This document shows, piece after piece, positions 3,270 to 23,826 of a DNA stretch of 24,400 nt (its first letter is position 1; every line of letters begins with the position of its first letter). The position numbers and the translations under genes were made by a program. The DNA is taken from IMG/VR virus record IMGVR_UViG_3300034170_000047, positions 1-24,400 of that record. One strand, given 5' to 3'. The notes under the pieces were generated by a model that was not told where the DNA came from, searched no databases, and saw nothing but the letters and a program-made list of their open reading frames with translations. Source of the stretch: a virus.

Positions 3270-4763
3270 ATGCCACAAGGTCTTTCCATTGGTCGGCTCA
3301 TTCGTGCGACCGTAAATTTGTCGCCTCTCGCGGCCCAGCGCCGTGGATTCGGCACCCTTCTGACCCTGGGCGACTCCGATGTCATGTCCCCCGGCGAAGC
3401 ATTCCGCACCTACACCGGAGCCGAGGCAGTGGTTGCCGAGTTCGGCACCACTGCGCCAGAATCTTTGGAGGCGCAGTCGTACTTTGGTCAAACACCGAAA
3501 CCACAGACCATGATGATTGGCCGTTGGGCGCGCACCGATACTCCGGCCGTATTGAACGGTGGCATATTGAATGCGACCGAGCAGTTGATGCCGTCTTGGG
3601 TGTCTATTACTACCGGAAGTTTCTCCATTCTGGTTAACGGCGCCGCTAAAAATGTCACCGGCTTGAGTTTCGCTGCGCAAACCAACTTGAACGGCGTGGC
3701 AAACATCATCAACACCGCGCTGACCACAGCAACAGCAGGCGTTACTTGTGTGTGGGACGGCACGCGTTTTGTGTTCACTTCCACAGCAACAGGTGCCGAG
3801 GCCACGCTCGGTTACGTCAGTGCGGTCTCCCCCGCTACGGGCGTAGATATTTCTGCTAAGCTCAAAGGCACTAGCCAGACTGCATCGCCGCCTGTGGATG
3901 GTTTCGACGCAGAAGCCCCGGTGGACGCTGTGGCACGCGCCGCTAACCAGTCCGGCAAGTGGTTTGGTCTGACTTTCGCCGCATCTGTGCCGCCTACTGA
4001 CGACCAGGTCGTCGCCGTAGCCACTCTTATCGAGTCTTTGGAATTGGAGCGCATGTACGGCGCTACCATTACCTCGACTACTGTTCTGGACGGCAACATC
4101 ACCACGGACCTGGCCAGCCGTCTTAAAGCGCTGAAATTCAACCGCACTTTCACGCAGTACAGCGCTAACGTGCATGCTGTGGCTAGCCTGTTTGGCCGCG
4201 CCTTCTCGGTTAACTTCAGCGCTAACCGCAGCACCATCACGTTGATGTATAAGCAGGAACCCGGCATCGTCGCCGAGTACCTGACTGAAACGCAGGCGGG
4301 TGTACTCAAAGCCAAGAACTGCAACGTGTTCGTCAACTACATCAACGACACGGCCATCATCCAATACGGCGTTATGGCCAGCGGCGCATACTTCGACGAA
4401 ATCCACGGCCTGTCTTGGTTCAAGGACACTCTGCAGAATGCCGAGTATAACCTGCTGTATCAAAGCAAAACCAAAGTGCCGCAGACCGACCCAGGCCAGA
4501 ACGAACTGATTGCTACGGCTACCCGCGCCTGCGACGAGGCTGTCAACAACGGCCTGTCTGCCCCAGGTCAATGGAACGCTGACGGTTTCGGCCAGCTGTC
4601 TCGCGGTGACTACCTCAAGACCGGCTATTACATCTTTGCGTCGCCTCTGGCCCTGCAGGATCAGTCGTTGCGGGAAGCCCGTGTAGCTCCTCCAATCCAA
4701 ATCGCCCTTAAGTTGGCCGGGGCTTTCCAAGAACTTGACCTCATCGTTGACGTCAACCGCTAA
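3270..4763 (+). CDS. Contractile tail sheath protein, DUF3383 family
   Basis: This 497-residue protein is the decisive marker for a contractile tail. It opens with LSIGRLIRATVNLSPLAAQRR and continues FGTLLTLGDSD, the hallmark N-terminus of DUF3383 tail sheath proteins, with GEAFRTYTGAEAVVAEFG and SYFGQTPKPQTMMIGRW as further matches. The protein polymerises around the tail tube and contracts at infection, driving the tube into the cell wall. The usual insertion domain (about residues 90-210) and the C-terminal part with ALKLAGAFQELDLIVDVNR fit the family. Upstream spacing is GGAGG about 6 bases before ATG. A 498-codon open frame on the other strand is a shadow caused by codon bias. Confidence 0.9.
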   Translation: MPQGLSIGRLIRATVNLSPLAAQRRGFGTLLTLGDSDVMSPGEAFRTYTGAEAVVAEFGTTAPESLEAQSYFGQTPKPQTMMIGRWARTDTPAVLNGGILNATEQLMPSWVSITTGSFSILVNGAAKNVTGLSFAAQTNLNGVANIINTALTTATAGVTCVWDGTRFVFTSTATGAEATLGYVSAVSPATGVDISAKLKGTSQTASPPVDGFDAEAPVDAVARAANQSGKWFGLTFAASVPPTDDQVVAVATLIESLELERMYGATITSTTVLDGNITTDLASRLKALKFNRTFTQYSANVHAVASLFGRAFSVNFSANRSTITLMYKQEPGIVAEYLTETQAGVLKAKNCNVFVNYINDTAIIQYGVMASGAYFDEIHGLSWFKDTLQNAEYNLLYQSKTKVPQTDPGQNELIATATRACDEAVNNGLSAPGQWNADGFGQLSRGDYLKTGYYIFASPLALQDQSLREARVAPPIQIALKLAGAFQELDLIVDVNR

Positions 4764-8034: not shown

Positions 8035-8344
8035 AAATCTTTATACCGTTCCTCTGACCAGCATACCACAGGACTTTAACATAGTCCTGGCCGGTGTGCA
8101 GTTCAGAATTGTTTGCAAATGGAACGAATTCAGCGGTTGGATCATCGATTTGTATGATGGTGTATCGCAAGCTCCTGTCATCATGAACATACCCCTCGTT
8201 GTCGGGTGTGACCTCCTGGAACAGTATCGGTACACTGGAATCCAAGGGTCTTTGGCGGTTTATACTGACGGCGATCAATATGCCGTACCCACCCTGGACA
8301 ATTTGGGTAGCGAGTCCAACCTTTATTATTTGGTGGATGTATGA
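8027..8344 (+). CDS. Baseplate plug protein (Pam3 gp18-like)
   Basis: A 105-residue protein with PLTSIPQDFNIVLAGVQFRIVCKWN (about residues 9-33), GWIIDLYDG and an ending LGSESNLYYLVDV. This is the pattern of the small phage baseplate plug family, also described in cyanophage Pam3 as gp18: Q-F-i-L-g-xx-y-xi--rWn and a W-iDl-D stretch. It closes the hub opening before contraction. It overlaps both neighbours (8 and 4 bases). The call is from motif memory and the position between Dit-like and hub proteins. Confidence 0.7.
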   Translation: MAENLYTVPLTSIPQDFNIVLAGVQFRIVCKWNEFSGWIIDLYDGVSQAPVIMNIPLVVGCDLLEQYRYTGIQGSLAVYTDGDQYAVPTLDNLGSESNLYYLVDV

Positions 8345-9285
8345 ACGGCGGCCAGGAGCAGTACATCCGGAAGTGTAACCTGATATTGGCTAATGAGGCC
8401 GGTTCAGGTCTTGACGTATCCGAACAAAAGATAACTTTTGCGGTTAAAAAGACCGATGGCCAGACTCCAAACACAGCCGTGATACGCGTGTATGGTCTGA
8501 ATGAAGACACCCGCAACAAAATTCAGAAAGAATACACTAACGTACTGCTTCAAGGCGGCTATGATTCAAACTACGGCATAATATTTACCGGCACCGCCAA
8601 ACGCGTGGCCAAGGGTTCTGATAACAATGTCAGCCCGTACCTAGAGATACAGGCCGCTGATGGCGACACTGCATATAACTTCGCCGTGGTCAACGCCACC
8701 ATTTCCGCTGGCGCGTCTCAACGCGACCAGATTGACCAGGTCGCCAAAGTCCTGAAAACCAAAGGCGTGCAGGTCGGTCATATGGAAATGGACGACACCC
8801 AAAAACTGCCACGCGGCAAAGTCATGTATGGCATGGGTCGTGATTACATGCGCCAGTCGGCCGCCAGCGGCGGCGCCTCATGGACCATTCAGGACGGTGT
8901 GGTAAAGGTTATACCCCTGACGGGCGTTCTGCCTGGGCAGGCTGTAGTCCTGAATAGCCGTACTGGCTTGATCGGCCGTCCTGAGCAGACCAATACAGGT
9001 ATCAAATTCCGCTGCTTGCTGAACCCCATGATAATGATAGGCGGGGCGCTGCAGATCAACGAGGCCGACATACAAACCGGCCAATTGGAGGAGCCACCTG
9101 CGTCCAAGGACGGCAAGACCCCCAAAGACAAGAAAGAGTTGGCCACCATAGAAGCAGACGGCTTCTACCGGGTCATCACTTTGACCTATGTCGGCGACAA
9201 TCGCGGCAAGGATTGGTATTGTGAAGGCGAGTGTCTGGACATTGACACTACAGTCGACAAGAAAAAATCAGTGCAGGCCAACTAA
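8341..9285 (+). CDS. Baseplate hub protein (gp27-like)
   Basis: A 314-residue protein of the kind that forms the trimeric hub to which the spike is attached. The N-terminal part (RKCNLILANEAGSGLDVSEQKITFAVKK, NTAVIRVYGLNEDTRNKI) resembles hub proteins of this myovirus group, followed by LQGGYDSNYGIIFTGTAKRV, a typical beta-strand pair. The last third includes a basic, charged linker (about residues 256-270) and the VITLTYVGDNRGKDWYCEGEC strand region common to hub C-termini. ATA isoleucine codons are frequent here, which may matter for the phage tRNA. Immediately followed by the spike gene without a gap. Confidence 0.72.
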   Translation: MNGGQEQYIRKCNLILANEAGSGLDVSEQKITFAVKKTDGQTPNTAVIRVYGLNEDTRNKIQKEYTNVLLQGGYDSNYGIIFTGTAKRVAKGSDNNVSPYLEIQAADGDTAYNFAVVNATISAGASQRDQIDQVAKVLKTKGVQVGHMEMDDTQKLPRGKVMYGMGRDYMRQSAASGGASWTIQDGVVKVIPLTGVLPGQAVVLNSRTGLIGRPEQTNTGIKFRCLLNPMIMIGGALQINEADIQTGQLEEPPASKDGKTPKDKKELATIEADGFYRVITLTYVGDNRGKDWYCEGECLDIDTTVDKKKSVQAN

Positions 9286-10337: not shown

Positions 10338-11516
10338 ATGGCCCTGGCAGACCTGGCTTATATTGATGACACAGGGTTCCATTACGCGGATTACCCGACT
10401 GTCCTTGAATACTACAAAAGTTCATACCGGGCCATATACGGTCAGGACACATATTTGGAGCCGGACAGCCAAGACGGGCAATGGTTGGCGATTGAAGCCG
10501 CAGCGATTTACGATGCTATTTCTTTGGCGGCTGATGTTTACAACTCATACTCCCCAAGCACTGCCCAGCGCGATGCCCTTAGCCGCAACGTAAAAATCAA
10601 CGGGCTGCGCCGTAAAATACCGAGCAGGTCAACAGTAGATCTGCTGCTTGTTGGCCAGGTCGGGTCTACGATTACTAACGGGGCTGCAGAAGACGAAGCG
10701 TCTGTGAAGTGGGAGCTGCCGCCATCTGTTACTTTTCCGCCGAGTGGCAGCATAACCATAACTGCGACAGCAACGGTTGATGGTGCGATTCGTGCGCCTG
10801 CAGGGTCTGTGAACAAGATTTCTACCCCAACCAGGGGCTGGCAGTCTGTAACGAATCCAAGTGACGCGGCGCCAGGGCGCCCGGTGGAGGAAGATGCCGA
10901 ACTTCGCCTGAGACAATCCCAGGCTTCGGCGCTGCCGAGCCGTACTGTGGTACAGGGCATCATCAGCGCGGTAGCCAACCTCGACGGCGTGTCCCGTCTC
11001 AGACTGTACGAAAATGACACGAAAGTCACAGACATTGACGGCCTGCCTGCAAATTCGGTAGCTTTAGTTGTTGAAGGCGGCGACAGCACAGAAATAGCAC
11101 AGACTTTAGCCGTCAAGAAGACTCCTGGCGGCTATACCTTCGGCACAGTAGAAGTCGACGTTACTGATACTTACGGCTTGCCGATGAAAGTGCGTATATC
11201 AAGGCCGATGTACGACACCATAACTGCTACCTTTAACATTAAGACCCTGTCCGGATACACCACAGCCACGGGCGATGCTATTCGTAAAGCGGTTTCCGAT
11301 TACATCAACGCCATCGCGATTGGCGGCGGAGTCAGCAAAACTGTAGAATGGGGCGATGCAATCTCAGTGGCGAATTCCGTAGGCGGCGGCGTGACTTTCA
11401 AAGTAACTGGCCTGACTCTTGAGGGACCGGACGGTCCTGGATCGCCAGACGTAGCTGTGGCATTTAACCATGCCGCCCAGGCTCAGCCGTCCGATATCAT
11501 ACTCTTGGAGACGTGA
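10338..11516 (+). CDS. Baseplate J-like protein
   Basis: A 392-residue protein of the baseplate J family, the main part of the wedge ring around the hub. Features are the N-terminal segment ALADLAYIDDTGFHYADYPTVLEYYKSSYRAIYG, the conserved PDSQDGQWLAIEAAAIYDA (about residues 43-61), the central APAGSVNKISTPTRGWQSVTNPSDAAPGRPVEEDAELRLR stretch (about 155-195), and a C-terminal region ending LLET. E-D-x-E-LR-R is the usual J signature. It follows the gp25-like gene with no gap and ends one base before the next ATG. Confidence 0.86.
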   Translation: MALADLAYIDDTGFHYADYPTVLEYYKSSYRAIYGQDTYLEPDSQDGQWLAIEAAAIYDAISLAADVYNSYSPSTAQRDALSRNVKINGLRRKIPSRSTVDLLLVGQVGSTITNGAAEDEASVKWELPPSVTFPPSGSITITATATVDGAIRAPAGSVNKISTPTRGWQSVTNPSDAAPGRPVEEDAELRLRQSQASALPSRTVVQGIISAVANLDGVSRLRLYENDTKVTDIDGLPANSVALVVEGGDSTEIAQTLAVKKTPGGYTFGTVEVDVTDTYGLPMKVRISRPMYDTITATFNIKTLSGYTTATGDAIRKAVSDYINAIAIGGGVSKTVEWGDAISVANSVGGGVTFKVTGLTLEGPDGPGSPDVAVAFNHAAQAQPSDIILLET

Positions 11517-15784: not shown

Positions 15785-16177
15785 TCACTTTAAAACAATG
15801 GACTGAACCTGTCCTTCTGTAATTTCTTTAACGCGATGTAGTTCGCACAGCATAAGCGCATTGCACAGCAACTTGTCAAGGTGGGTGGCGCCTGTGCTGC
15901 TATCCGGGTCGACGACCTCGCCCGCCATATGTTTGGTCAAATGGCTCATTAACGAATCAATAAGCTCGTCCTGCGGCAGGCCCTTACGCCAATTGCCTCT
16001 GCCGTACTTCTCAACTCCCTCTTTGAACCCATTGGCGGCCCCCTCCAAAGCTTTGGCGAATTCCAAAACCAAGCTCAACTGAGGCTTGCTGCCGTCTGAT
16101 CGGTCCCTTTTAGCGCGTTCAACAGTTCCAAGAAGTTTATCTTGGCCTGCCATGTCAACGTTGCTTGTGCTTTCCAT
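15785..16177 (-). CDS. DUF5664-type putative dATP/dGTP diphosphohydrolase
   Basis: A 130-residue protein, last of the - strand operon. The core GFKEGVEKYGRGNWRKGLPQDE (about residues 50-71) followed by LMSHLTKHMAGEVVDPDSSTGATHLDKLLCNALMLCEL (about 76-113) fits DUF5664, annotated as the N-terminal domain of phage dATP/dGTP diphosphohydrolases. Likely metal-binding residues are H79, H83, E87, D90 and H99. The start ATG has GGAG 9 bases upstream; it overlaps the end of the nuclease gene by 103 bases in another frame. In this cassette it could reshape the dNTP pool. The activity is inferred; some members may not be catalytic alone. Confidence 0.72.
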   Translation of the reverse strand: MESTSNVDMAGQDKLLGTVERAKRDRSDGSKPQLSLVLEFAKALEGAANGFKEGVEKYGRGNWRKGLPQDELIDSLMSHLTKHMAGEVVDPDSSTGATHLDKLLCNALMLCELHRVKEITEGQVQSIVLK

Positions 16178-16512
16178 CCTTCATAACTCCTATCGTGGAT
16201 CAATTCCCGGCTCTTGGCGCCCGGAATCAAAAGATATTCTGATTTACCGAAATTGTCATCGTAGCGGGCTAGTATCCATGGAGTACCGCCATGCCTGACC
16301 CGATTGCACATCCATGCGTTCTGTGTCGCACGCAGGATGAAGCCGCCGCGCTTGCGGTCGTAGATTTTTAGTTCCACGTCGCCCTGGATGCCGCTGAAGC
16401 AATAGTTAACATCAGGGCGGCCCTGCGATGTGGCGTGGGATTCGATCCGGTCCAGGTGCCCCTGGTGATCGAGGCCATCCTTCACAGTTTTCCAGAGTCT
16501 GGCTTCTGTCAT
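16075..16512 (-). CDS. PD-(D/E)XK nuclease (VRR-NUC/resolvase-like)
   Basis: A 145-residue protein with the nuclease core E24, GRPDV (D34), VELK (E47, K49) and a following Q64 in RATQNAW, the arrangement of the PD-(D/E)XK fold as in VRR-NUC and Holliday-junction resolvase-like enzymes. Probably cuts branched or replicating DNA. It starts one base after the DatZ stop (TAA then ATG), so it belongs to the same transcript as the Z-genome genes. The last 34 residues share bases with the start of the DUF5664 gene. The exact substrate is unknown; structure-specific or DNA-degrading roles are both possible. Confidence 0.74.
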   Translation of the reverse strand: MTEARLWKTVKDGLDHQGHLDRIESHATSQGRPDVNYCFSGIQGDVELKIYDRKRGGFILRATQNAWMCNRVRHGGTPWILARYDDNFGKSEYLLIPGAKSRELIHDRSYEGWKAQATLTWQAKINFLELLNALKGTDQTAASLS

Positions 16513-16513
16513 G

Positions 16514-17023
16514 TTAAATCTCGTATGCCGCGTTTTGAATTTCGGACCAGATCTGCATCGAGACCCGACCCGGCTCCCCCACTAAATCAAAATAACGAAC
16601 GGCATGCGTCATGATGTCATCCATAACAGCGTCGGCATGCCGCCCTACTTTGTGTTCCATCAAAAATATCATGGACTCCAAATAATCGGCGCACTTCATC
16701 ACGGCTTTCAATTTGGGCTCGACTTCAAGCACCGGATCAAACTGCGCCAGAACTCTGTCGGCGGCGTCTCCGAGACTATCTCGGAGACGCGTCTTGGTCG
16801 GGGTGGGCACGTCGCCTGTCCGAACCTCGCCCGCGTCGTGGACTATGGACAGAAAGGCCAGACGGGCCACCGTCGCATCATCGAGGCCCAAGCGTGCGGC
16901 AATCTCGCAGGCTAGGACCGCCACGCCCCATTGATGTTCAGCCAACGTTTGGACTCGGGTGGTGTTGACGATATGGAATCGCTTGACCGTGCCAGCCCTC
17001 AGGATATCATGTAGGACTATCAT
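16514..17023 (-). CDS. datZ: DatZ: dATP triphosphohydrolase, HD domain
   Basis: A 169-residue HD-domain protein, close in length to S-2L DatZ. Metal ligands expected for the HD fold are visible: H30 (in TLAEHQWG), H62-D63 (in LSIVHDAGE), E66 and D113 (in KCADYLES). DatZ removes the triphosphate from dATP, clearing A from the nucleotide pool so that the polymerase inserts 2-aminoadenine. An HD protein of this size could also be a 5'-nucleotidase (YfbR-like), but adjacency to MazZ and PurZ makes the Z-pathway role by far the best explanation. Its start overlaps the end of mazZ by 17 bases. Confidence 0.86.
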   Translation of the reverse strand: MIVLHDILRAGTVKRFHIVNTTRVQTLAEHQWGVAVLACEIAARLGLDDATVARLAFLSIVHDAGEVRTGDVPTPTKTRLRDSLGDAADRVLAQFDPVLEVEPKLKAVMKCADYLESMIFLMEHKVGRHADAVMDDIMTHAVRYFDLVGEPGRVSMQIWSEIQNAAYEI

Positions 17024-17309
17024 GTTTCAGAATTCCTTGATCGTTCACCGACCACGTGCGTTTATCGTTAATGTCCATCTTGTGCTTGATCAATTTCGGC
17101 AGATCGAAGCCCATGTGGTCACACAGGTCAAACAGGATAATGGCGATATCCGCCATTTCAAAAGCATCGAGTGGATTGGCTTCAAGCTCCTTGAATTCCT
17201 CTTGGAGCTTGGCCAACATATGCTCTTTGGTGCGATTCGGATAAACCTCATCGCACCACTGCTTGATCCCGTCCGTTATTTCCCTGAGGTCATATAGGAC
17301 GGGGCGCAT
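17007..17309 (-). CDS. mazZ: MazZ: MazG-like (d)GTP pyrophosphohydrolase
   Basis: A 100-residue all-helical MazG-type protein. Key acidic residues are E37-E38, E41, E51 and D54 (in LQEEFKELE and FEMADI), the EExxE...ExxD metal site of MazG-like NTP pyrophosphohydrolases. In Z-genome phages, MazZ converts dGTP (and GTP) to the monophosphate, supplying dGMP for PurZ. It starts one base after the purZ stop and overlaps datZ by 17 bases, an order typical for the cassette. Function is assigned by combining fold motif and neighbours; the motif alone would only say MazG-like. Confidence 0.87.
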   Translation of the reverse strand: MRPVLYDLREITDGIKQWCDEVYPNRTKEHMLAKLQEEFKELEANPLDAFEMADIAIILFDLCDHMGFDLPKLIKHKMDINDKRTWSVNDQGILKHDSPT

Positions 17310-17310
17310 A

Positions 17311-18339
17311 TCAAGCTTTGTCCGCTTCTATCACTTCGCGGTACGAAGGACCAAAACCGAAATATGCAATCTTCACGCCTGTGGCCACACCGATGTCATA
17401 GGCCAGTGCGGGCACCTTGTCAGGGCAGTAATTGCAGAAGTTCAGGAAGATTTCATCAGGAGCACAGTAGAACGCCGCTTCCCGGATCTGTTCGAGGCTA
17501 AACGTGAATACCCGGCGTACCCTTCCTGTAACAGTCGTCGTTTCAGCGGTTTGGCCCAGTTCTTCCCACGAAGTCTCTGACTGATCTTCGTAACATGGAC
17601 CGCTGAAACCATCCGCCGTGTTTCCGACGCGGATAGGATACGTCCGGGCCGTGCCAATGACGCGGCGCAGGAAATTATGAGGGATCCCCATATCTGACAA
17701 GAATCGCGCTGGCGTGCAATCACGCGAAGTAGTAAACGGGTAGAAGTTCGTGTTGATCCCAAGCGAATACCCCTGGCTGCCCTCTGCGAGTATTTCTTCT
17801 GCTTGCTCAAGCGCATCACGCCACTCCTCGTGGGTGCAAACAAAACCGGCCCAGCCGAAACCTACTAACCCGGCGTTGGCGGCAATAGGAGCATCCAACA
17901 GCGGACGGCTCATTTTGTGGACCATGGCGGCCATGCTGCCTTGCATAGTGCTGCTGATGCCGGACAGGCTGCCGCGTTCGGTTTCGGCATGTTTTTCGCG
18001 CAGCACTGTAGCGTTAGGGTGAATGAGAATCTCGACCTCGGTGCCGAGGTAGCCCAGGGCGCGAGCTTCGTTCACTTCCTTCATCAGGCGGGCCGGGTCA
18101 AACACTGCCCCAGGGCCGATCATCACGGCGCGCAGTGCAGGCGACACGATGCCGTTCGGCAACACTTTATGGATCATCTTGTTGCCTTTGGAGTCGATGT
18201 ACGTATGCCCGGCGTTGGGCATATTGCACGTGACCACAGTATCGTATTCGCGGGTTTCGGCGAGATACCCGGCAATCAGACCTTTGCCGGTGCTGCCGAA
18301 CTGCAGGTCTACGATCATATCTACTTTTTTACATGTCAT
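17311..18339 (-). CDS. purZ: PurZ: 2-aminoadenylosuccinate synthetase
   Basis: A 342-residue relative of adenylosuccinate synthetase (PurA), shorter than the bacterial enzyme (about 430). The P-loop region is DLQFGSTGKG (residues 11-20): S16 stands where E. coli PurA has catalytic Asp13 (QWGDEGKG), and T17 replaces the next Glu. PNAGHT (41-46) keeps the catalytic His of PurA NAGHT (H45). Asp-to-Ser is the known change that lets PurZ use dGMP, giving N6-succino-2-amino-dAMP with ATP and aspartate. Host PurB would then release dZMP. It overlaps the primase-helicase gene by 11 bases and is followed by mazZ and datZ; AAGGGG lies upstream of ATG. Confidence 0.93.
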   Translation of the reverse strand: MTCKKVDMIVDLQFGSTGKGLIAGYLAETREYDTVVTCNMPNAGHTYIDSKGNKMIHKVLPNGIVSPALRAVMIGPGAVFDPARLMKEVNEARALGYLGTEVEILIHPNATVLREKHAETERGSLSGISSTMQGSMAAMVHKMSRPLLDAPIAANAGLVGFGWAGFVCTHEEWRDALEQAEEILAEGSQGYSLGINTNFYPFTTSRDCTPARFLSDMGIPHNFLRRVIGTARTYPIRVGNTADGFSGPCYEDQSETSWEELGQTAETTTVTGRVRRVFTFSLEQIREAAFYCAPDEIFLNFCNYCPDKVPALAYDIGVATGVKIAYFGFGPSYREVIEADKA

Positions 18340-20683
18340 CTTGTGGTTCCCCTTCTTCGTCGATGTTGCTTTCGATTGCGTAAACTTTCATGGCCAACTC
18401 GGCCAGTTCTTTGATGCTCGGTACTTCTATGGTGCGGATTCGTGCGTGTTTCTGGCGCAGCCTCGATCCCTCTTTGAATCCAAGCTCTGCCATTTTGGGA
18501 TAGAAGACCGACGACCCAAAAATCGGTACTTTGGACTTATATCGGCGCGACCAGTCAGCATAGGTTTCCCAAAGCTTGGACTTGTCAACGATTCCAGGCC
18601 ATCCAGTGCCCTCGCTCTGCATATCGGCCCGTACGTCATTGATGCCTAGGTTGCCGGTGTCGAGTAGGTACGCCACCCAAGCCGGTAGGCTATCATACAG
18701 GCTCTGCACTTGCATCAGGGTCCGTTGGGCCTTCAACTCCTGCGTCACTGGAGCATACCGCAAGTTACTTACCACTTGGCGATTCAACAACTCATACAGC
18801 ATGGCCTCATATCCGCCATTCTCAAGCTCGGACTTGATCGCCCCGAAGTATTTCCGGTCGTTCGCAACTGCGTCATTCACCTTCAACACGAACCAACGGC
18901 GGGATTCTGGCCCGGCCGCTACCTTCCAGTCGTTGTTGGTAGACATCATGATATGAATGAATGATTCTACCTTCTCTTTCGACCCGAATTTCTGTTCGCG
19001 GGTATTGGTCTTTTCAGTGACCATCGCCTTGAGTTGGTTAGCCGTCTCGTGATTACCGGCGTATACCACTTCGTCCGCGAACAGGAACACCGAATCCATG
19101 ATCATGTCGTTGAACTGCGACGTCAAGTGCTTGCTATTCGACACGATTGACGCATGCAGCCCGAATATGTGCGCCAAAGCGTTGGCCAATGTACCCTTAC
19201 CAGCACCCTCGATGCCGCCCAGGACCACGGCGCACCCTTTGGGGTTGGACGGATCTTGGAACATGTCGGCCATCCAGTCCATCAGCCAATCATAATATTC
19301 CTGGTTGCTGCTGCAGAGATTATGTAGAATGTGCGATTTAAGGCAATCCCACACACCTTCCTTTGCTTCTACTGCGAACCCGGCCCAAGTGTTAAGAAAT
19401 GTCAAGCCGGTTGAATCTGTGACCGTGTGCGGCATATCCGGCTTAAGCAGCAGCCCATCGAACGAATTGCGGCGCGGGCTAGCCATCCAAATGTCAAATT
19501 TACGGATCGGCTTCTCAGCGCCCTTTTCATTCTGCACCATTATGACATCATTGGCGAAGTACGCCCTGAATGCATCGATGCTATATAACTTGTAACGGTG
19601 CTGTATGGTGCCCAATACTTGCTCTTTCCGTGCTACCTTGACCTGCTCGCCGGACAGCACCAAGGCGAAACGGCGGTTGTACTCGTCGACGCTGTCAACC
19701 ACGAACCCGGTGTCGTCGCCGCCTTTGGCTTCCTCGACCATGGCCGGGGTGCCGAACTGTTGAACGATATAGAACAGGGTGGCCATACGCACAGGGCCGT
19801 TGGACTTGAACCCCTTCCAACGCACGTGGCATTCGCCAGACTCGTACCGCTCGCCACGTTGGGACCATTCATCCCACAAGTCCAATGCATCACCGCCAGA
19901 ATGCTGCGAGTGAATGGCCTGACCGATCTTGACCCACTGTTCGTAGTCTAACACGTTGGGGTCAACAGCGTCAAGTAGTGCTGCTACCTTGGTTAACGGG
20001 ACCTGGGTTTCGACATCCTCTGCCCGCATCCCCTCATTGCCGCGACCTTCTCCGTCCTGCTTGCGCCACGCAATGCCCATGGCGTCTTCAACCCACTGCG
20101 GCGATTCAATGACCTCGCCGCCTGATTTCCACATATACTGCTTATCGTCGACCACGGACGGGAATGCCATGATATGCGACGAGATTTTGCCCTTGTGACC
20201 GCCCCTGGTGTCGATCCCTAAGGCCAAGCGGTTCTGGCTCGGGGTCAGGTTTTCTTTCCACTGCATCACGACGTGTTCGCCGCCGCTTGGCGTGACCTGG
20301 ACCGGGGTGTCCATGAATCCGTGTTGGTTTTCAAGCAACTCCCAAGCGGCCGGGCCCCAAGGGCTATCCTCGTATTTCTCGGCGTACTTGTTATCGATGT
20401 CAATGGCAAAAATGCCGCCCTTGCCGTAATAGTCACCACACCCCAATGCGATGTTATAGCCCTTGAAGCTCCCCGTTTCCGGGTGGAACCACTCTATGAC
20501 CTTTTCCTTGCGCGCCGAACAGCGAGACGTATACAGCGTCTTGCTGTTAACGTGCTTCTCCCCGAAGGGTATCGGGATGACCGGGATACCCTGCGCTGCA
20601 TACATGAGGGCGGCCCGGAAGACTTTGACATTCCTGTCGTCTATCTTCTCAATTGCCTTAACTTCGGCCAAGTCGATTTTCAT
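18329..20683 (-). CDS. PrimPol-SF3 helicase replication protein
   Basis: A 784-residue fusion of primase-polymerase and helicase. Residues 25-175 form a Prim-Pol domain with IALGCGDYYGKGGIFAIDID (D95 and D97, the metal-binding DxD) and TPSGGEHVVMQW (H137). Residues about 228-312 look like a PriCT-2 linker domain (LDYEQWVKIGQAIHSQHSGGDAL). The C-terminal half is a D5/DUF5906-type superfamily 3 helicase: Walker A GGIEGAGKGT (489-498), Walker B FLFADE (533-538), motif C MSTNN (580-584). It would prime and unwind the Z-DNA fork. S-2L also uses a PrimPol. It overlaps the polymerase gene by 4 bases (ATGA) and purZ by 11. Confidence 0.87.
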   Translation of the reverse strand: MKIDLAEVKAIEKIDDRNVKVFRAALMYAAQGIPVIPIPFGEKHVNSKTLYTSRCSARKEKVIEWFHPETGSFKGYNIALGCGDYYGKGGIFAIDIDNKYAEKYEDSPWGPAAWELLENQHGFMDTPVQVTPSGGEHVVMQWKENLTPSQNRLALGIDTRGGHKGKISSHIMAFPSVVDDKQYMWKSGGEVIESPQWVEDAMGIAWRKQDGEGRGNEGMRAEDVETQVPLTKVAALLDAVDPNVLDYEQWVKIGQAIHSQHSGGDALDLWDEWSQRGERYESGECHVRWKGFKSNGPVRMATLFYIVQQFGTPAMVEEAKGGDDTGFVVDSVDEYNRRFALVLSGEQVKVARKEQVLGTIQHRYKLYSIDAFRAYFANDVIMVQNEKGAEKPIRKFDIWMASPRRNSFDGLLLKPDMPHTVTDSTGLTFLNTWAGFAVEAKEGVWDCLKSHILHNLCSSNQEYYDWLMDWMADMFQDPSNPKGCAVVLGGIEGAGKGTLANALAHIFGLHASIVSNSKHLTSQFNDMIMDSVFLFADEVVYAGNHETANQLKAMVTEKTNTREQKFGSKEKVESFIHIMMSTNNDWKVAAGPESRRWFVLKVNDAVANDRKYFGAIKSELENGGYEAMLYELLNRQVVSNLRYAPVTQELKAQRTLMQVQSLYDSLPAWVAYLLDTGNLGINDVRADMQSEGTGWPGIVDKSKLWETYADWSRRYKSKVPIFGSSVFYPKMAELGFKEGSRLRQKHARIRTIEVPSIKELAELAMKVYAIESNIDEEGEPQDDM

Positions 20684-22548
20684 TTTTTGTCAGGCTTCCT
20701 GATAGCTTCCCACCAATTGGACCCCGAACCGTTCAAGTCCATCAGGAGCGGCACCCTGGATGGCAACGATGCAGCAACGCCCTGCATAGACTTGAACCCG
20801 GCTGTCGGGTCATCCACGCTCGTATCAAAGCTGTCGTGGATGTTCAAAATAATAGTGCCGTTTCCTTCGATAGCGGTCTCGATGCCGGACCACAGCATCT
20901 TGTTGAAGTCGGCCGATGTTCCTTGAATCAACAGCCCGGATTGCTTGTACGACTTGTACCCGTTGATGCAGCGGAATCTGCGACCTGTGAAACTCTTGAT
21001 ATAGCCTCTGTCTTCCGAGATTTGCTTCGCCCGGTCAGCCAGTGTCTTCACGCCCGGAACTTGGCGGTGATACTCATCAATGATGGCCATCATTTCAGGC
21101 CCGGGCTTGCGATAGCGGATCGTTTTGCCCGCTTCGCGGCCGCTTCGCACCATGAACTCGGCCCATTCCCAAGGCAATCCTAGCTTGTGGGCGATTGCCC
21201 CGTTGCCTGAATTGAAAATCATTGACAGATTCAACTGTTTGGCGTTCGCCTCCCCTTGGCGAGTTGCGTTTCGCGGCACGCCCATCAGGTCAGCCACATA
21301 TTGGTGGAAGTCCATCGCCGGATTGGCCGCGTATACCTTCTGCAGGGCGTCGTTGTACAGCGCCACCAGATGGGCGAACACTCGCACTTCGAATGAGTTC
21401 ATGTCGCCGGACAGCCAACGCTGGCCGTGTTCAGGCAGGAATGCAGGTTTGATCCTCGCGGCTACTTCCTTGTTCCGGTTCGGAATCTGTTGCATCGCAG
21501 GGTCTTGGTATGACAGCCGCCCTGACCGGGTGCCGCCATCCTCGCCTGCGGTTTGGTTTATCGTCGGGTAAACCCGTTCGCCATGCATGTGACCAAGGAT
21601 GTGGCCGCCCAGGAACGTGTCACGGGTCTTGATCAGCGACCGGATTTCTACTACGGCATCAGCAATAGGATCGCCCATGGCATTCAAGATATCGGCTGTC
21701 ATCGATGCGCCGCCGGACTTCGCAGTGCCCAGGGTCGAGCCGGTCAATTCAGACACCCAAATTCCAGACGGCAGCTGCTTGGGCTTGAATAGCTGCTTAA
21801 TCTGCGGCGCGCTATTCACGTTGATGCCCTTGATCCCGACTGCTGTCTCGAATTTTACTTGAGCCTCGTCAATAATGACGGTAAGGTCATCCATTGCCTT
21901 CTCAGCGGCCACAGGGTCAACCCGTATGCCACGCAGCGCAGACCGTATAAGAGTAGGCTGCACCTTGCGTTCAAACTCGATGATTTCCTGCAATTCCTGG
22001 CGTTCAATCTCCTTTTGCTGCCACAGCCACAGGCGCAGCGCCAATTGGGCGTCCTTGTCCTGATAGCGGCGCACTAAATCGCGCGGCGCGTGTTGGAGAT
22101 TCATGATTTGACCATTCTTGGTGGGGCGACCGCCGAATATATCAGCCAACTCCTGCCAAGGCTCCTCTTTACCTTCTTTCAGGTATTTCTGAGCAAGATC
22201 CTCAAGCATGTAACTGCCTGGGCGGCCCCAAGGGAACAGGGTGCCCTCATGCTCATTGATAAGGCAGGCGCGTACCACGGTGCAGTCCACGCGATCCAGC
22301 GGCATGCGGATGCCCGCCGAAACGAGCATTTTAACGTCGAACTGTGCGTTATGAAATACGAACAAGCAGCGGGAGTTGTCGATGTCCCGCTGCAATTGAG
22401 GAATAAGGTGCTGCTCGGTCCGGAAATCCACGAAAACTGATTCGCCACTGGCAGGCGCAAGCGACACAGAAAAAGCCTTGTCGCGTGGATACACAAGACC
22501 GGTTGTCTCGGTATCCACGCCCACGACTGGAAGGTCGAATACTGACAT
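20680..22548 (-). CDS. dpoZ: Family A DNA polymerase with 3'-5' exonuclease (DpoZ candidate)
   Basis: A 622-residue replicative polymerase. The exonuclease sites are all present: D12/E14 (VDTET), N67/D71 (FHNAQFD), Y162/D166 (RRYQDKD). The polymerase domain has RSGRLSYQDPAMQQIP (341-356), motif A GDMNSFEVR (D382, E387), motif B ANAKQLNLSMIFNSG (K437, F445) and motif C NIHDSF (H571, D572). Motif B lacks Arg four residues before the Lys (E433 instead) and motif C lacks the usual Glu (S573), so the dNTP site is divergent. No 5'-3' exonuclease domain. The link to the Z cassette makes this a DpoZ candidate. Confidence 0.85.
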   Translation of the reverse strand: MSVFDLPVVGVDTETTGLVYPRDKAFSVSLAPASGESVFVDFRTEQHLIPQLQRDIDNSRCLFVFHNAQFDVKMLVSAGIRMPLDRVDCTVVRACLINEHEGTLFPWGRPGSYMLEDLAQKYLKEGKEEPWQELADIFGGRPTKNGQIMNLQHAPRDLVRRYQDKDAQLALRLWLWQQKEIERQELQEIIEFERKVQPTLIRSALRGIRVDPVAAEKAMDDLTVIIDEAQVKFETAVGIKGINVNSAPQIKQLFKPKQLPSGIWVSELTGSTLGTAKSGGASMTADILNAMGDPIADAVVEIRSLIKTRDTFLGGHILGHMHGERVYPTINQTAGEDGGTRSGRLSYQDPAMQQIPNRNKEVAARIKPAFLPEHGQRWLSGDMNSFEVRVFAHLVALYNDALQKVYAANPAMDFHQYVADLMGVPRNATRQGEANAKQLNLSMIFNSGNGAIAHKLGLPWEWAEFMVRSGREAGKTIRYRKPGPEMMAIIDEYHRQVPGVKTLADRAKQISEDRGYIKSFTGRRFRCINGYKSYKQSGLLIQGTSADFNKMLWSGIETAIEGNGTIILNIHDSFDTSVDDPTAGFKSMQGVAASLPSRVPLLMDLNGSGSNWWEAIRKPDKK

Positions 22549-22556
22549 ATTAGCCC

Positions 22557-22889
22557 CTAGAAAGGAATGTCATCATCGAAGGAGTCGAAATCCGGCTTAG
22601 GCGCCGGTGCCTTATGCTTATCGATTTTTGCTTGGTTGTTGGCCAAAAATCCGGCTGCATCAGACTGTTTGGCCTGAGGGCTGCGCTGCTGCGGGGCAGA
22701 ATCATCTTTTGGGGTCAAGGCCAGCGACAGATATTTGGCGCCCTTGCCGGACGTCTTAATCCAGCCGGACACCCAAAATTCGCGGCCGTTATCGTCCTCG
22801 ATAGAGCCTTTGTAGTCCGGGTGCTTGTCGGTGCTCTTGCGGTCGTTGAGGAACAACGCCCCGCGCAATGAGTTGTCGTATTCTGACAT
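22557..22889 (-). CDS. SSB-like protein with bacterial SSB-type tail
   Basis: A 110-residue protein. Residues 1-62 look like a small beta domain (RGALFLNDRKSTDKHPDYKG, REFWVSGWIK, AKYLSLALTPK), followed by a low-complexity linker rich in Q, K, A and P. The C-terminus DFDSFDDDIPF nearly copies the acidic tail of E. coli SSB (DFDDDIPF), which binds host partner proteins. This supports an ssDNA-binding role that recruits host repair and replication factors. The OB-fold itself is not recognisable by eye. GGAGA lies 7 bases before ATG, and the stop is 8 bases before the polymerase start. Confidence 0.75.
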   Translation of the reverse strand: MSEYDNSLRGALFLNDRKSTDKHPDYKGSIEDDNGREFWVSGWIKTSGKGAKYLSLALTPKDDSAPQQRSPQAKQSDAAGFLANNQAKIDKHKAPAPKPDFDSFDDDIPF

Positions 22890-22945: not shown

Positions 22946-23701
22946 TTACATGTCGGCTGCGTCAGCCCGTTCAGCAACTTCGGCCTTGCGGGACACATCT
23001 TTCTGGCCAGCCTTCACAGCTTCGTACACGGCCTCAGCACGCTTGAAGATGTACTCGGGCACGTAGCCCAGCTGCTTGGCCGACCAGTTGAAGAACGCGC
23101 CCTTAGGCGACTTGTCGCTGACAACCGACAGCTTGTAGGCACGAGCGAAGCGATCGCCACCCGACTGCTGAACCATCGTGTTCCACTTGCGGCTAGGTTT
23201 CAGCTGCGAGCGGGACATCGACAGTACCACGTCTTCGATGTGTGGCTTGGCCTCGGTGCTGTCCGGGTGGACCAGGAGGCAGAAATGTTGGTGAGTGTAA
23301 GAAATATCCCAAGCGTCAGGTTGCTCCTGATTCTTGATCCACTCCTCTGCTTCTTCTTCGGTGTTGGCTGCGACACCGAAACCGCCGCCTTGATCACGAT
23401 CCTTCCAAGCCACGTATTCAGAGCGGAAGAAGCACGGCACCAACAGCACGCTATCGCCCAACAGCACGTTGCTGGAGGTGTTGAACAGCATGCCTTCCTC
23501 GGCGCCTTCGATATAGGCGTCTTCGGATTTTTTGCGCTGAGGCGACAGATCCTGGATGATGGTAAGTCGCGGGAGCGACATATCATCGGTGGTAACCCCT
23601 TCACTGCCGCGCCCGGTGTCCTGGACGTAATCCGGACGTTCGCCGCCGAACAAAGCCATCTCTTGGTCGGCGGATGCTGCTGCCAATTCTTTCTTAGCCA
23701 T
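22946..23701 (-). CDS. Conserved phage protein of unknown function, early operon
   Basis: A 251-residue, mainly acidic soluble protein. Visible parts: an alanine-rich N-terminus (MAKKELAAASADQEMALFGG), DDMSLPRLTIIQDLSPQRKKSEDAYIEGAEEGMLFNT (about 39-75) and LGDSVLLVPCFFRSEYVAWKDRDQGGGF (about 81-108), then VLSMSRSQLKPSRKWNTMVQQSGG (about 162-185). No membrane segment or catalytic motif. Proteins of this kind occur next to phage replication genes, but I cannot name a domain. Its place beside the SSB-like protein and polymerase suggests a DNA-binding or replication accessory role. The ribosome site (GAAGTGAG) is weak and distant. Confidence 0.72.
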   Translation of the reverse strand: MAKKELAAASADQEMALFGGERPDYVQDTGRGSEGVTTDDMSLPRLTIIQDLSPQRKKSEDAYIEGAEEGMLFNTSSNVLLGDSVLLVPCFFRSEYVAWKDRDQGGGFGVAANTEEEAEEWIKNQEQPDAWDISYTHQHFCLLVHPDSTEAKPHIEDVVLSMSRSQLKPSRKWNTMVQQSGGDRFARAYKLSVVSDKSPKGAFFNWSAKQLGYVPEYIFKRAEAVYEAVKAGQKDVSRKAEVAERADAADM

Positions 23702-23749: not shown

Positions 23750-23826
23750 TGGTGGGCCTGCAGGGACTCGAACCCTGGACCAAGGGATTATGAGTCCCTT
23801 GCTCTAACCATCTGAGCTACAGGCCC
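23750..23826 (-). tRNA. tRNA with CAU anticodon (probable tRNA-Ile2)
   Basis: A full cloverleaf reads on the - strand: acceptor GGGCCTG/CAGGCCC, D-arm GCTC...GAGC, anticodon stem AGGGA/TCCCT with loop CTCATAA (anticodon CAU), variable loop TGGTC, T-arm CAGGG TTCGAGT CCCTG, discriminator A and encoded CCA (23750-23752). CAU reads Met, or Ile AUA after lysidine modification. Pairs C4-G69 and C5-G68 match the known preference of the TilS lysidine enzyme, so tRNA-Ile2 is favoured. The gene lies between two early CDSs, 5 bases after the upstream stop, and is probably processed out of that transcript. Confidence 0.93.

Follow-up and report, generated by a model that had tools for sequence, protein, structure and literature searches.

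The window, a 24.4 kb metagenomic contig that constitutes an entire IMG/VR virus record, very probably encodes a complete phiVC8-type Z-genome replication module in a contractile-tailed phage, in which 2-aminoadenine (Z) is expected in place of adenine. From position 15785 to the right end of the window, the main genes lie on the minus strand. In the direction of transcription, they begin with DUF7307 (Pam3 gp33-like), followed by a tRNA-Met (CAT, 23750-23826) inside the replication module, a Pam3 gp34-like gene (22946-23701, PF23977), the single-stranded DNA-binding protein SSB (22557-22889, phrog_18154), a family A polymerase and a PrimPol-helicase. These are followed by PurZ, a DUF550 protein (MazZ-1), an HD hydrolase (DatZ), a small nuclease-like protein and a DUF5664 protein. 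The first-pass annotation had recognized three neighboring Z genes at 16514-18339, and these exact positions are borne out, all three being minus-strand open reading frames. The two neighbors it named are also correct, with the polymerase at 20680-22548 and the PrimPol-helicase at 18329-20683. Its gene inventory captured the cassette, but neither the DUF5664 gene nor the half of the contig that encodes a contractile tail was noticed. PurZ, MazZ-1 and DatZ stand head to tail with the PrimPol-helicase and polymerase upstream, and from the polymerase to DatZ the frames overlap or lie 1 base apart. Such packing is compatible with one transcription unit and is no proof of it; of the earlier proposal of one operon, the close gene packing thus stands, and operon status itself is read from the packing alone. 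No match to the whole window was found by megablast among phage records.

PurZ (17311-18339, minus strand, 342 aa), the putative N6-succino-2-amino-2'-deoxyadenylate synthetase, is homologous to the PurA family (PF00709). It scores 340 bits (E 1e-101) against the curated NCBIfam PurZ model NF038379, above the cut-off of 300 bits, and stays below every PurA cut-off (120 bits for TIGR00184 against a cut-off of 396). Its best PDB match is phiVC8 PurZ (6fm1, 4e-110) with S-2L PurZ second, the identities being 55% and 39%, respectively. As claimed earlier, a Ser replaces the catalytic Asp of PurA, namely S16 in the motif DLQFGS16TGKG, which aligns with S14 of phiVC8 and S23 of S-2L PurZ and is invariant in the ten aligned PurZ sequences. 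In addition, T268 and V238 are conserved, whereas Q308 of S-2L PurZ corresponds to N303, the same residue as in phiVC8. By its sequence features, the protein groups with the S-2L and phiVC8 enzymes and away from PurA, so that the refutation by alignment proposed in the first-pass annotation, a grouping with ordinary PurA, fails.

The two small enzymes downstream of PurZ belong to the families that had been named for them, a MazG-like dGTP pyrophosphohydrolase and an HD-domain dATP phosphohydrolase. MazZ-1 (17007-17309, minus strand, 100 aa) scores 33.5 bits against PF04447 (DUF550; cut-off 23), and its sole match of solved structure is S-2L MazZ (7ody, 2e-10), with 34% identity. The metal ligands E37, E38, E41, E51 and D54 correspond to E34, E35, E38, E50 and D53 of S-2L MazZ, the guanine determinants I57 and D61 to its I56 and D60, and its R83 is also conserved (residue roles from PMC8342488). 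DatZ (16514-17023, minus strand, 169 aa, phrog_7076) is a predicted dATP triphosphohydrolase with S-2L DatZ as its best solved match (6zpa, 3e-18). It retains the metal ligands H30, H62, D63 and D113 (S-2L H34, H66, D67 and D119) and the phosphate contacts R15, K77 and K110 (S-2L R19, K81 and K116). Residues I18 and P75 equal I22 and P79 of S-2L, where I22 excludes the 2-amino group (PMC8065100). W20 of S-2L, which keeps out ribonucleotides, is conservatively changed to F16 in the window and is Tyr in BUCT555. Since F16 of DatZ and N303 of PurZ differ from S-2L, specificity details may deviate. Elsewhere, DatZ directly follows PurZ with no MazZ-1 or MazZ-2 detected in the loci L023, L026, L028-L031, L037, L038 and L068, and in Vibrio phage K300 a MazZ-2-like frame that lacks an annotation separates DatZ from PurZ (L009, about position 2802, minus strand).

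By its sequence, the polymerase (20680-22548, minus strand) is a member of the Z-selective DpoZ family, the aminoadenine-incorporating family A enzymes of the phiVC8 type with 3'-5' exonuclease, an assignment absent from the first-pass annotation. It scores 745 bits (E 5e-224) against the curated DpoZ model NF038380, whose cut-off is 500 bits, and its best PDB match is phiVC8 DpoZ (7pbk, 1e-188), to which it is 50% identical. The signature residues described for phiVC8 DpoZ (PMC8599892) are present, L441, F445 and G538 corresponding to L455, F459 and G548, and insertions 1-3 all align. Across MazZ and DatZ of S-2L and DpoZ of phiVC8, every published metal-binding residue and nearly every specificity residue has its counterpart in the window. 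The PrimPol-helicase (18329-20683, minus strand; Prim-Pol, PriCT_2 and DUF5906 domains) is 41% identical to that of ZP6 and 36% to that of phiVC8. Chance resemblance is excluded by the E-values of PurZ and DpoZ, by the PDB matches to Z enzymes and by the recurrence of the system in two further contigs.

Two more genes complete the block. The small nuclease-like protein (16075-16512, minus strand, 145 aa) is conserved in Z loci, is 28% identical to ZP6 gp20 (annotated as a nuclease) and 36% to phiVC8 p23, and its relatives are annotated either "DNA helicase" or "nuclease". Its family, phrog_2165, bears the name "DNA helicase", which looks wrong for a protein of 145 residues with a nuclease annotation on its relative in ZP6. 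The stand-alone DUF5664 protein (15785-16177, minus strand) scores 70.5 bits against PF18909 (cut-off 27) and matches phrog_801, dATP/dGTP pyrophosphohydrolase, making it a candidate extra dATP/dGTP hydrolase. For phage Wayne, hydrolysis of dATP, dGTP and dUTP by DUF5664 is reported, and in PurZ phages this domain is frequently fused to DUF550 (PMC12884076). In the window, it is encoded by a gene of its own behind the nuclease gene. The nuclease is followed by a separate DUF5664 in 19 of 53 comparable loci and by DUF6378 in 12, never by both, and a separate DUF5664 occurs in 9 of the 10 loci lacking any MazZ; the loci are related to one another and hence not independent. This distribution suggests that DUF5664 can substitute for MazZ. 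DUF6378, which takes the slot of DUF5664 in many Z loci (L004 1351-1647, L008 2134-2406, L009 1520-1855, L011 10211-10573 and L003 32727-33413), is possibly another nucleotide-pool enzyme. A common origin of the two domains was considered and dropped, as hhalign found no homology.

For every step of the dZTP synthesis and dATP removal proposed in the first-pass annotation, there is thus an enzyme whose family and residues fit, which makes the pathway a strong prediction. Following the biochemistry of these families (PMC8342488, PMC8065100, PMC8599892 and PMC12884076), MazZ would convert dGTP to dGMP, and PurZ would make the succino-intermediate dSMP from dGMP and aspartate, using ATP. PurB and nucleotide kinases of the host would carry dSMP to dZTP. 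DatZ would destroy dATP, a task in which the DUF5664 protein probably assists, and DpoZ, a polymerase type that prefers dZTP, would act together with the PrimPol-helicase to copy the genome with dZTP opposite T. The expected product is a Z-DNA genome inside a myovirus virion. Gene identities, key residues, gene order and their recurrence in related contigs are read from the sequences, and from them we infer the enzyme activities, the host PurB and kinase steps and the presence of Z in virion DNA.

Active enzymes might also achieve partial replacement, leaving a mixture of A and Z in the DNA. In this direction point F16 of DatZ in place of W20, the variability of base-contact positions among relatives, and the S-2L genes expressed in E. 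coli, which converted a significant amount of adenine but not all of it (PMC8342488). We regard such a mixture as improbable, as a full-signature DpoZ accompanied by two or three dATP/dGTP hydrolases favors full replacement, as in phiVC8. That the genes instead represent ordinary purine-salvage PurA and nucleotide-pool enzymes of an ordinary A-containing phage would fit the PurZ-PurA homology, the MazG and HD hydrolases known from ordinary phages and the HD hydrolase that phage RH2G carries without PurZ, but is hardly credible given the Asp-to-Ser change, the PurZ score of 340 bits against 120 for PurA, and the DpoZ polymerase alongside.

The left 15.7 kb of the window, on the plus strand, encodes capsid, tail sheath, tape measure, baseplate hub and wedge, fibers and lysis proteins. 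The contractile tail sheath (DUF3383, 3270-4763) scores 375 bits against phrog_205 and 424 bits against PF11863. The baseplate hub (8341-9285) matches phrog_196 and PF22759 (E217 gp41), and the baseplate wedge subunit (10338-11516) scores 175 bits against phrog_6. From the sheath, hub and wedge genes, a myovirus morphotype is predicted. The window by itself is a single metagenomic contig whose replication genes are nearest to those of podo- and siphophages and whose tail genes are nearest to those of Magia-like phages, as might result if an assembly error had joined the tail half to the Z half of a phage with another tail type. Such a chimera is very unlikely, because the layout recurs in two other IMG/VR contigs, which join the Z cassette to sheaths 71% (G001, 38 kb) and 70% (G002, 41.6 kb) identical to that of the window, and because the cultured Burkholderia phage Bm1 likewise combines a tail sheath with Z genes.

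A scan of IMG/VR with a PurZ alignment returned 382 places encoding a relative, of which the best 80 were taken, and 50 PurZ-bearing records, mostly the longer and closer ones, were examined for a sheath. The PF04984 model missed the sheath in known positives as well, and phrog_205 took its place. It detects a sheath in at least four of the 50 records (G001, G002, G044 and Bm1), three of which (G002, G044 and Bm1) also yielded a baseplate wedge; these counts are lower bounds, many records being fragments. The gene set and order of the window recur in G001 and G002. G044 (IMGVR_UViG_3300020045_009460, L080, 63.7 kb) carries sheath, PurZ, DpoZ, MazZ-1, DatZ and DUF6378 and is nearest to Bm1.

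In the PurZ tree, the window with G001 and G002, and Bm1 with G044, form two separate supported groups, and placing all five sheath-bearing PurZ in one group is rejected (p-AU 6.8e-5), a result to be taken with caution as this grouping was defined once a first tree had been seen. Known Z phages are the nearest relatives of the replication module. This includes the Pam3 gp34-like gene, whose best matches are in ZP6, DMU1, SH-Ab 15497, K21lambda1, PMBT28 and K300 and most of whose nearest phage relatives are known to have PurZ. Most simply, exchange brought the Z replication block and the contractile-tail module together on at least two occasions in the tree, and the replication genes seem to be transferred as one block among phages of different body types. 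We consider it likely that Z-DNA is packaged by contractile-tailed phages, that the two modules were united at least twice (window/G001/G002 and Bm1/G044), and that a stand-alone DUF5664 took the MazZ role in some PurZ phages. A search for lysogeny genes found no PF00589 integrase in the 50 PurZ-bearing records, and none was found in the window or G001. In prokaryote assemblies, PurZ was found at only four loci, all in metagenome-assembled bins and giving no host link; one of them seems to be identical with the contig of an IMG/VR record. A clade-wide tRNA-Met was dropped as a candidate feature, the window and Bm1 having one (Bm1 CAT, L003 37780-37855, in the replication module) and the scanned stretches of G001 and G002 none. 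On a 119.9 kb contig (L058), PurZ occurs with no DpoZ, DatZ or MazZ detected within 10 kb, and its Z gene set may be differently arranged or incomplete.

The Z gene set itself is already known, and the window cassette confirms and widens the system. The part that may surprise specialists is the contractile-tail setting. Z phages are described as siphoviruses or podoviruses in the abstract of PMC8599892 and in a figure legend of PMC8342488, the string "myo" is absent from PMC12884076, and the openly searchable literature does not mention a contractile tail for Z phages. Our analysis suggests that the Z-genome machinery extends beyond these two types. For the cultured phage Bm1, electron microscopy showed particles of myovirus type (PMC12003559), and the text of that paper does not contain "aminoadenine", "diaminopurine" or "adenylosuccinate". 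Its record (PP183292.1, L003) encodes PurZ, a DUF550-like MazZ-1, DatZ, the nuclease, DUF6378 and DpoZ at 32727-37748, and itself annotates PurZ, DatZ and a polymerase. We predict 2-aminoadenine in the DNA of Bm1, a lytic myovirus under consideration for therapy that provides a directly testable isolate.

Among the closest known systems, Bm1 shares with the window the contractile tail, PurZ, MazZ-1, DatZ, nuclease and DpoZ, but differs in its PurZ branch (AU test), its 67.5 kb genome and the presence of DUF6378 instead of DUF5664. Burkholderia phage Magia, Bordetella phage IFTN9 and similar DUF3383-sheath phages resemble the window in the sheath (49% identity for Magia) and capsid (about 45%), whereas Magia and IFTN9 have an annotated integrase and no annotated PurZ. 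The cyanophage S-2L (datZ-mazZ-purZ) shares the three genes and the MazZ-1 residues, but has no DpoZ and copies its genome with PrimPol alone (PMC8065100). In Acinetobacter phage SH-Ab 15497 and Klebsiella phage K21lambda1, which also combine DUF5664 and DUF550 domains with DatZ, DpoZ and PurZ, the two domains are fused, whereas in the window they are two genes with DatZ and the nuclease between them. The order of polymerase, primase, PurZ, MazZ-type enzyme, DatZ and nuclease is common to phiVC8, ZP6, K300 and BUCT555. The Vibrio podophages of the phiVC8/Enhodamvirus group share with the window the order SSB, DpoZ, PrimPol, PurZ, MazZ-type enzyme, DatZ and nuclease. Where the window has DUF550/MazZ-1 and DUF5664, phiVC8 carries MazZ-2 and DUF6378, and it is described as a podovirus, whereas the window encodes a contractile tail.
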